A DNA stretch of 9,047 nt from Candidatus Raymondbacteria bacterium RIFOXYA2_FULL_49_16 (GTDB lineage Bacteria; Fibrobacterota; OXYB2-FULL-49-7; XYB2-FULL-49-35), in contig MFYT01000031.1 in the NCBI GenBank assembly GCA_001789205.1, forward strand, positions 1 to 9,047, given 5' to 3'. Shown in pieces: positions 1-1,920 of the stretch (positions are counted from its first letter, which is position 1; every line of letters starts with the position of its first letter). A program made the translations under genes and the position numbers. The notes beneath the pieces were generated by a model. It was not told where the DNA came from. It ran no database searches and saw only the letters and a list, made by a program, of their open reading frames with translations.

Positions 1-89
1 TGGGCCGAGAACTGCCAAGCGGTATCTGTTTCATACGATTACGCACAAACAACGCTGTTGTGACTCAAAAAATCGCTATAATGCGATAA
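1..89 (+). CDS. C-terminal end of a secreted/surface protein with type A sorting-like tail (partial)
   Basis: Reading from base 3, an open frame runs to the TAA at 87-89 and gives 28 residues beginning G-R-E-L-P-S-G-I-C-F-I-R-L and ending K-I-A-I-M-R. The pattern of G-x-LPSGxYFxRL, then a polar turn, then a hydrophobic strand closing with a basic residue is typical of the last two strands of the FlgD-like Ig or type IX secretion 'type A' C-terminal sorting domain. A Cys stands where the family usually has Tyr. The other two forward frames are also open for a short distance but give no recognisable pattern. The rest of the protein lies outside the window, so its function is unknown. The family assignment rests on a short stretch and is an inference. 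Confidence 0.6.
   Translation, partial: GRELPSGICFIRLRTNNAVVTQKIAIMR
54..82 (+). promoter_or_regulatory. Candidate promoter for the leuA leader transcript
   Basis: A perfect -10 hexamer TATAAT lies at 77-82. Only weak -35 matches exist 16-17 bp upstream (GCTGTT at 54-59 or CTGTTG at 55-60). Transcription would begin near 89, just after the upstream stop codon, and give about 50 nt before the leader ORF at 139. The hexamer overlaps the last codons of the upstream gene, so it could be coincidental. A weaker alternative is TTGCTT (96-101), 17 bp, TATTTT (119-124), which would leave almost no untranslated leader. Confidence 0.35.
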
Positions 90-138
90 GAATATTTGCT
101 TTTAATTGCTGGAAAAAGTATTTTATTAAAGAATGTTT

Positions 139-237
139 ATGAAACGATCATCAAAAATGCAGTTTAAACACAATATAAGTGTTTATCAAAGAGCACTACT
201 TCGACTTATACGCCCCCGCGGAGGTGCGCAAGGGTAG
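139..237 (+). CDS. Putative leucine leader peptide upstream of leuA
   Basis: A 32-codon ORF starts at ATG 139 and ends at TAG 235-237. In-frame ATGs at 133 and 157 are alternative starts. Its C-terminal half reads Y-Q-R-A-L-L-R-L-I-R-P-R-G-G-A-Q-G. The codons CTA CTT CGA CTT ATA occupy 196-210, so three of four consecutive codons are Leu, followed by Ile. The stop lies just before two mutually exclusive RNA structures and about 120 nt before leuA. Leader peptides of known leu operons (LeuL of enterobacteria) share this design of a Leu-codon run followed by an Arg/Gly-rich tail. The ribosome binding site is weak: a purine stretch at 128-133 is 5 nt before ATG 139. The peptide probably has no function of its own; its translation would sense charged tRNA-Leu. 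The ORF is seen directly, and its role is inferred. Confidence 0.6.
   Translation: MKRSSKMQFKHNISVYQRALLRLIRPRGGAQG
165..185 (+). repeat. Perfect 7-7-7 inverted repeat inside the leader ORF
   Basis: TAAACAC at 165-171 is repeated in inverted form as GTGTTTA at 179-185 around a 7-nt A/T spacer. It lies inside the putative leader ORF, just before the Leu codons. In RNA it could form a small hairpin that pauses polymerase early in the leader. In DNA it could be an operator. No T-run follows, so it is not a terminator. Confidence 0.45.
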
Positions 238-283
238 GCCATACCTTTTTACAGTGAAAACAACCCGGCCCCCTTTCGCACCT
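222..283 (+). promoter_or_regulatory. Candidate antiterminator pairing of the leuA attenuator
   Basis: AGGTGCGCAAGGG (222-234) can pair with CCCTTTCGCACCT (271-283) at 12 of 13 positions, with a single C-T mismatch in the middle. This takes up bases 271-274, which form part of the 5' arm of the downstream terminator, so the two structures exclude each other. The upstream arm overlaps the last four sense codons and reaches the stop of the leader ORF, where a ribosome that finishes translation would cover it. A ribosome stalled at the Leu codons (196-207) would leave it free. That is the arrangement expected of classical ribosome-mediated attenuation. The pairing is read directly from the sequence; the regulatory behaviour is inferred. 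Confidence 0.55.
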
Positions 284-300
284 GCGTCAGGGGGCTTTTT
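268..300 (+). terminator. Intrinsic terminator (attenuator) before leuA
   Basis: GCCCCCT at 268-274 pairs perfectly with AGGGGGC at 289-295 and is followed at once by TTTTT (296-300). Inside the loop, CGC (277-279) can pair with GCG (284-286) and extend the stem. The T-run lies about 60 nt before leuA and points toward it, so it would stop transcripts entering the operon. GCCCCC at 212-217 can also pair with GGGGGC at 290-295, so an untranslated leader would fold into one long stem (212-234 with 271-295) that still ends in the T-run. It could in part serve the upstream gene, but its distance from that stop (about 180 nt) and its link to the leader ORF favour attenuation. Confidence 0.7.
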
Positions 301-346
301 GTTGGCTTTCACAAGCATGAAATGGCTATTTTAACGCATTGATTTC

Positions 347-353
347 AAAGGAG
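347..353 (+). promoter_or_regulatory. Ribosome binding site of leuA
   Basis: AAAGGAG lies 7 nt before the ATG at 361. It is the strongest Shine-Dalgarno match in the first part of the window and fixes the leuA start. Confidence 0.85.
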
Positions 354-360
354 AAGAACA

Positions 361-1920
361 ATGGATAAAAACAAAGTACTTATTTTCGATACAACCCTGC
401 GCGACGGCGAACAGGCGCTTCAGTCAAGCCTGTCGGTCAACGAGAAAATACAGATTGCGCAACAACTCACCCGCCTCAAGGTCGATATCATCGAAGCGGG
501 ATTCGCCATATCGTCGCCGGGCGACTTTCAGTCAATTAAGACCATTGCCGAAGAAGTGAAGGGACCGGTCATTTGCTCCCTGGCCCGTTGTGTCGACAAG
601 GACATTGAGGCCGCGGCCAAGGCGGTCAAACCGGCGGGGCGCGGCAGGGTCCATGTATTTATCGGGACCTCACGCATTCACCGGGAGAAAAAACTTCGCA
701 AGGGAGACGACGAAGTGCTGGCCATGGGCGTTGCCGCTGTCAAGTACGCGCGCAAACTCTGCGGCGATGTTGAATTCTCGTGCGAAGACACAGGGCGTAC
801 CGAGCTTTCGTATTTGTACCGTTTTGTCGAGGCAGTAATCAAGGCCGGGGCCGCAACGATCAACCTTCCCGACACCGTGGGGTACACAGTGCCCATGGAA
901 TTCAGGGGCATTATTTCCTCCGTGTTCGCCAATGTGCCAAATATTGACAAAGCAATCATATCGGTCCATTGCCACAACGATCTGGGCCTTGCCGTGGCCA
1001 ACTCCATCATGGCGGTTGAATGCGGCGTCCGCCAGGTCGAATGCACGATCAACGGCATTGGCGAGCGCGCGGGCAATTGCTCCCTCGAGGAAGTGGTAAT
1101 GATCCTGAAGACCCGGGAGAAGCTCCTGAAGCTCAATACGAACATAGCGGCAAAGGAGATCATGCGCACCAGCAGGCTGGTCAGCAGGCTCTGCAACATG
1201 CCCGTGCAGCCCAACAAGGCCATTGTGGGCTCAAACGCCTTTGCCCATTCGTCGGGTATTCATCAGGACGGCGTGCTCAAAGAGCAGACCACGTACGAGA
1301 TCATGAAACCGGGCTCTATCGGGCTGTCTGAAAACGTGCTCAATCTCACCAGCCGGAGCGGCCGCCATGTGATCAAGCACCGTCTGGCGCTGTTGGGCTA
1401 CAAGGAAAAAGAATACGATCTCGATACGGTATACCAGCGATTTCTGGCGCTTGCCGATAAAAAGGGACGCGTCTATGATGATGATCTTGAAGCGCTCATC
1501 GAACTGCCTCATGCTGAGGAGACCGATACCTTCAGGCTCACCTACCTGAATGTCACTTCAGGATCAAAAGTTGTGCCCACGGCAACGCTTCGAATAAGCG
1601 CCAAGGGCAAAACCATCCAGGAAGCGGCCACGGGCGACGGGCCTGTGCACGCGGTCTGCAGCGCCATTGACCGGGCAAGCGGTATGAACGTTAAAATGCT
1701 CGACTACAGGATCACCAGCCGCACGGGCGGCCGTGAAGCGTTGGGTGTAGTCGATATTCTCGCTGAATATGCGGATCACCGTATTCACGGGAGCGGATCG
1801 TCCACAGACATTATCGAGGCGTCGGCACTTGCGTATATCAACATCCTGAACAAGATCGTGCGTCTTCAGGAAGTCCGCAAGGCGCGGGCAAGCAGGAAAC
1901 AGCGCCAGAGAAAGGCATGA
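361..1920 (+). CDS. leuA: 2-isopropylmalate synthase
   Basis: Catalyses the first committed step of leucine synthesis in the cytoplasm: acetyl-CoA plus 2-oxoisovalerate gives 2-isopropylmalate. The 519 residues match the long bacterial LeuA form (E. coli about 523) along the whole length. The TIM-barrel catalytic domain holds DTTLRDGEQ (residues 10-18, with the metal ligand D15), the HCHND metal site (H203 and H205), GIGERAGN ending at N239, and HSSGIHQDG from H296. A linker follows, then the C-terminal LeuA allosteric domain (roughly residues 390-505) that usually binds leucine, including the segments GDGPVHAV and STDIIEASA. The extended similarity to E. coli LeuA, including the full regulatory domain, argues against citramalate or homocitrate synthase. 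An upstream attenuator probably adds transcriptional control by leucine. The stop overlaps the next start (ATGA). Confidence 0.95.

Follow-up and report, generated by a model that had tools for sequence, protein, structure and literature searches.

A putative ribosome-mediated leucine attenuator in front of leuA in a member of the Fibrobacterota

The window, by which we mean the whole 9,047-nt stretch of DNA analyzed here, starts at base 1 of its contig, and the gene upstream of the leuA leader lies past the contig end. The leader and leuA itself comprise the following features, given in order of position.

55 to 82, forward strand: weak candidate promoter, CTGTTG-16-TATAAT, from the sequence and a script, which would leave about 50 nt of transcript ahead of the leader ATG
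139 to 237, forward strand: leader peptide ORF of 32 codons, MKRSSKMQFKHNISVYQRALLRLIRPRGGAQG plus stop, with ATG at 139-141 and TAG at 235-237 (sequence and shuffle control)
196 to 210, forward strand: control codons CTA CTT CGA CTT ATA (Leu Leu Arg Leu Ile), from the sequence
212 to 239, forward strand: candidate 1:2 protector hairpin of 9 pairs, 212-220 with 227-239, from the predicted fold of 139-245 (RNA made up to 245)
222 to 234, forward strand: segment 2, the antiterminator 5' arm, AGGTGCGCAAGGG, within the final codons of the leader ORF, with 12 of 13 positions pairing with 271-283
267 to 300, forward strand: intrinsic terminator, with stem 267-274/289-296, inner stem 277-279/284-286, and T tract 296-300
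271 to 283, forward strand: segment 3, the antiterminator 3' arm, CCCTTTCGCACCT, overlapping the 5' arm and loop of the terminator
319 to 347, forward strand: block downstream of the terminator, GAAATGGCTATTTTAA[CT]GCATT..., near-identical to one in the ilvD leader (L004) of the same genome
347 to 353, forward strand: good Shine-Dalgarno sequence of leuA, AAAGGAG, from the sequence
361 to 1920, forward strand: leuA (2-isopropylmalate synthase, 519 aa), the putatively regulated gene

The short ORF, which has an in-frame alternative ATG at 133-135, carries control codons that match the product of the downstream gene. A preliminary description of this region had placed the ORF, its alternative start, and the CTA CTT CGA CTT ATA run at these positions, and all of the coordinates agree with the sequence. 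The Leu run is short and weak, consisting of 3 Leu codons and 1 Ile codon in 5 codons with an interrupting Arg; CTA is rare, accounting for 3% of the Leu codons (5 of 166) in six genes of the window. The Shine-Dalgarno sequence of the ORF start is weak, and the candidate promoter at 55-82 is absent from the list produced by a consensus promoter scan.

An intrinsic terminator sits between the leader ORF and the structural gene. In its core, GCCCCCT (268-274) pairs with AGGGGGC (289-295) and is followed by T5; the terminator fold has a predicted energy of -21.5 kcal/mol (z, -3.8). The antiterminator form has a predicted energy of -47.1 kcal/mol (z, -5.7), and its 222-234/271-283 pairing excludes the 267-274/289-296 hairpin. 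The preliminary description had recognized the 12/13-pair helix and the terminator core that it disrupts, and both are present in the sequence. Alternative folding recovered both forms, refined the terminator stem to 267-274/289-296 plus 277-279/284-286, and gave a larger antiterminator than had been stated, since 212-220 is able to pair with the 3' side of the terminator as well. As a control for chance, we made 1,500 dinucleotide shuffles of window positions 1 to 360. A terminator arose in 21 of these and a terminator plus an antiterminator (-18 kcal/mol or better) in 4, while a terminator, an antiterminator, and an ORF ending on the arm occurred together in 0 of the 1,500.

We simulated the ribosome by masking the bases that it covers and refolding the remainder. 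With the A site at 196, 199, or 205, the remainder folded into the antiterminator, with 12 antiterminator pairs and 0 terminator pairs for the masks at 199 and 205. With the mask at the stop codon, there were 0 antiterminator pairs and 8 terminator pairs. The antiterminator is thus incompatible with the terminator, and the position of the ribosome decides whether the antiterminator arm is available; the masked folds switch in the manner that had been proposed from the sequence (Leu codons giving the antiterminator and TAG 235 giving the terminator). We consider it very probable that the leuA leader is a classical ribosome-mediated transcription attenuator. A ribosome would translate the leader peptide (139-237) on RNA that RNA polymerase is still extending through the leader. 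When Leu-tRNA is scarce, the ribosome would stall at the Leu codons at 196-207 and leave 222-234 free to pair with 271-283, so that no terminator would form and leuA would be transcribed. When Leu-tRNA is ample, the ribosome would reach the stop codon at 235 and cover 222-234, the terminator (267-296) would form, and transcription would stop near 300. The same scheme underlies classical leu, ilv, and trp attenuation. Since the minimum-energy fold without translation is the antiterminator, basal termination would rely on cotranscriptional folding or on the predicted 1:2 hairpin.

A terminator/antiterminator pair, taken alone, fits any attenuator, and a metabolite riboswitch, a T-box, or a protein-binding leader might instead govern the terminator, with the short ORF being incidental. 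We regard this as improbable. An Rfam scan of the window gave 0 matches at the gathering score for any family, Leu_leader, T-box, and riboswitches included; moreover, a short ORF whose codons match the pathway and whose end forms the antiterminator arm is found in 17 sequence-divergent relatives.

When window positions 1 to 420 were compared by BLAST with their own genome, one other match was found, located before ilvD-ilvB, and the first match covers window positions 269 to 347. The ilvD-ilvB leader is a complete second attenuator, with peptide MKYRIHSLVSLITVVLIVPQCRGARG ahead of a stop codon (...LITVVLIVPQCRGARG), the same ORF end (AGGTGCG..AGGGTAG) and the same partner as in the leuA leader, and a terminator of -30.1 kcal/mol. 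Its codons specify Val, Leu, and Ile, suiting ilvD-ilvB, whereas those of the leuA leader are mostly Leu, so codon content follows the gene. Across 167 phylum genomes, the only 2 occurrences of the pattern GGTGCGNNAGGGTAG-N20-50-CGCACC are in the source genome, and its reversed control has 0 occurrences. The GAAATGGCTATTTTAA[CT]GCATT block that the leuA and ilvD leaders have in common could serve as a binding site or could be left over from a copying event.

The phylum of the compared genomes is very probably Fibrobacterota, as indicated by matches to Fib_succ_major (TIGR02145), of which there are about 50 per genome in one large genus. In other families of the phylum, leuA follows ilvC in an ilvB-ilvN-ilvC-leuA operon, and the region directly before leuA holds no attenuator in these relatives, leuA being the fourth gene of the operon. 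Before ilvB, however, 17 of the 18 operon heads examined show the same architecture, including a leader ORF that contains an I/V/L run. These ORFs typically end in GRETGF before the stop codon, and the ORF end pairs with the 5' arm of the terminator. In the eighteenth operon (L164), a leader-like ORF (MAHLRTADLLVNLLVLVTGEE) and a terminator are present but fall below the detector criteria. The automatic detector, which requires 5 I/L/V in 9 codons, misses the window leader, and a Leu criterion finds it. No leaders of the same kind were seen before the ilvD copies of the relatives that we read; the leader precedes ilvB there.

Covariation was assessed in 17 leaders of related families, using an alignment built without structure. 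In the antiterminator helix, 94.1% of cells were paired and 7 of 10 pairs had changed on both sides; the corresponding values for the terminator helix were 94.7% and 6 of 10. The covariation score of either helix was reached by 0 of 500 shuffles, and slid controls dropped to 36 to 65% paired. Compensatory changes in both helices were thus found across the leaders of related families; for the source genome itself, only the paralogue offers a comparison. The preliminary description had held that a lack of conservation of the Leu codons or of the pairings in relatives would speak against attenuation, and the comparison gave the opposite result, with I/V/L codons in the leader ORFs, covariation in both helices, and a paralogue before ilvD. 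These data also bear on whether the hairpin is a chance terminator between genes, marking the end of an upstream transcript, next to a spurious ORF. Intergenic intrinsic terminators are common, and the contig does not reach the upstream gene; nevertheless, given the outcome of the shuffles (0 of 1,500), the second copy in the genome, and the covariation of both helices, we find this explanation highly improbable, and its main prediction, an absence of conservation, is refuted by the relatives.

The window leader itself was compared only with its own ilvD paralogue and with more distant leaders. A covariance model made from the relatives detected leaders at E values of <1e-8 in ~30 genomes and failed to match the window leuA leader, which has a different pairing register and loop length; the likeness is therefore one of architecture and, by sequence, only loose. 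Matches to this model in the phylum with E values above ~1e-5 were mostly ordinary terminators, often on both strands, and were counted only if read by hand. The promoters of the ilvB leaders also drew our attention. In 11 of the 17 (among L146 to L163), the best -10 hexamer ends 6 to 8 bases before a leader ATG, which would put the RNA start at or beside the ATG and suggests that these leader-peptide transcripts are leaderless. The window leader differs in this respect, as its best -10 candidate is weak and lies 50 to 56 bases upstream.

Reading weak covariance-model matches by hand brought to light further leaders in the phylum. Ile-rich leaders precede the citramalate synthase gene cimA in family f12 (MKSTLAIRIIITPPGSGL and two more; L200, L202, and L211), and Leu-rich leaders precede a second, 550-aa type of leuA (MLALNLFLLHLFLHLLSGI and two more; L209, L218, and L220). 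Thr/Ile-rich leaders (..SSATTTTTCTKRTTTS..) are found before asd, encoding aspartate-semialdehyde dehydrogenase (L215 and L247), and are reminiscent of the enterobacterial thr leader. Phe/Tyr/Trp leaders (..SAFYFYFWYFTPAILRGHG and MNTKIYTCPFYFYFWLKT) lie before genes for DAHP synthase (L222 and L223, also L221/L207 and L224), in two genomes as two tandem leader-terminator units. No His leader was found in the hisG upstream regions of the phylum that were examined. In family f12 (L196 to L199), leaders that conserve a W-[VA]-I-[IV] stretch and end in ..GA[AV] before the stop codon lie upstream of a DMT-type (EamA-like) transporter gene. Similar leaders are present at two named loci outside the phylum, one in a Spirochaetaceae metagenome-assembled genome (MAG) (L034) and one in a Kiritimatiellae MAG, where a V/L-rich leader (..NLLNLVLTVVNGLVLVVSIDVDGKEAGSK and stop) and a terminator precede an ilvB-ilvN-leuA operon (L035, 380-560).

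Which signal the leuA attenuator reads is a separate question. It might sense branched-chain amino acids generally, responding to Ile through ATA at 208-210 as well as to Leu, or might respond to an overall slowing of translation. The control codons of the leuA leader comprise just 3 for Leu and one for Ile, a mixture of I/V/L codons is seen in most leaders of the phylum, and ribosome arrest from other causes gives an identical fold switch. However, leuA is Leu specific, the codons ahead of the arm are mostly Leu and include the rare CTA, and the ilvD paralogue uses Val/Leu/Ile instead, with codon content tracking the gene. We therefore consider a general sensor unlikely, though appreciably less so than the other alternatives, and favor a leucine response.

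Among known systems, leuL (Rfam Leu_leader), of enterobacteria and other Gammaproteobacteria, resembles the window leader in that its leader peptide is Leu coding, its antiterminator and terminator exclude each other, and it directly precedes leuA. Of 78 named leuA loci (almost all gammaproteobacterial), 63 show an LLL leader and a terminator with a similar detector. Compared with leuL, the window leader lacks an Rfam match, has a shorter, interrupted Leu run, places its antiterminator arm in the ORF's final codons, and belongs to Fibrobacterota. In Proteobacteria and Actinobacteria, attenuation is an established control of branched-chain amino acid (BCAA) genes (PMC1262725). The actinobacterial ilv/leu leaders (the ilvBNC attenuator of Corynebacterium and the LEU element before leuA) likewise place a leader peptide that contains branched-chain codons upstream of ilvB or leuA (PMC1262725). 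The LEU element, however, is described as a pseudoknot in which Leu codons pair with the Shine-Dalgarno box (PMC1262725), whereas the window leader has an intrinsic terminator and a simple antiterminator. A 2010 survey described leader-peptide attenuators as known only in Proteobacteria and Actinobacteria until its own case in Firmicutes (PMC2965389). Ribosome-mediated BCAA attenuation beyond the former two phyla is exemplified by Rli60, the ilv-leu attenuator of Listeria monocytogenes, which was tested by mutation (PMC5864092); Rli60 differs in that its peptide is 13 aa long and lies ahead of ilvD in a single ilv-leu operon, in its additional control by CodY, and in its phylum and sequence (PMC5864092).

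The preliminary description had suggested that, in a host outside Proteobacteria and Actinobacteria, the leader could be an undescribed instance of leucine attenuation. The host very probably belongs to Fibrobacterota and so would lie outside both groups, and we found no paper on attenuation or leader peptides in Fibrobacter, Fibrobacteres, Fibrobacterota, or Chitinivibrio, in a search that most subscription journals were beyond and that leaves absence unproven. The suggestion holds to that extent and is weakened by the BCAA attenuation already known in Firmicutes (Listeria Rli60). The mechanism is classical; what appears to be new is its occurrence in Fibrobacterota, where leaders of this type are common.

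Fibrobacterota are cellulose- and chitin-degrading bacteria. We think it reasonably probable that ribosome-mediated attenuation is a general mode of control across much of this phylum, undescribed there, that acts on genes for BCAA, Leu, Ile (cimA), Thr/Ile (asd), and aromatic amino acid (DAHP synthase) synthesis, sometimes through tandem leaders and often from leaderless leader-peptide transcripts, with the window leader and its ilvD twin being a further, copied pair that serves a split operon. This phylum-wide pattern is of higher interest than the single leuA leader (of moderate interest). A phylum-wide set in Fibrobacterota would mean that the mechanism is much older, or arises far more readily, than the 2010 survey implied. 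For annotators, the short ORFs of such leaders are control elements, and the leaders themselves would provide testable amino acid sensors in rumen and soil bacteria in which there has been no genetic work.
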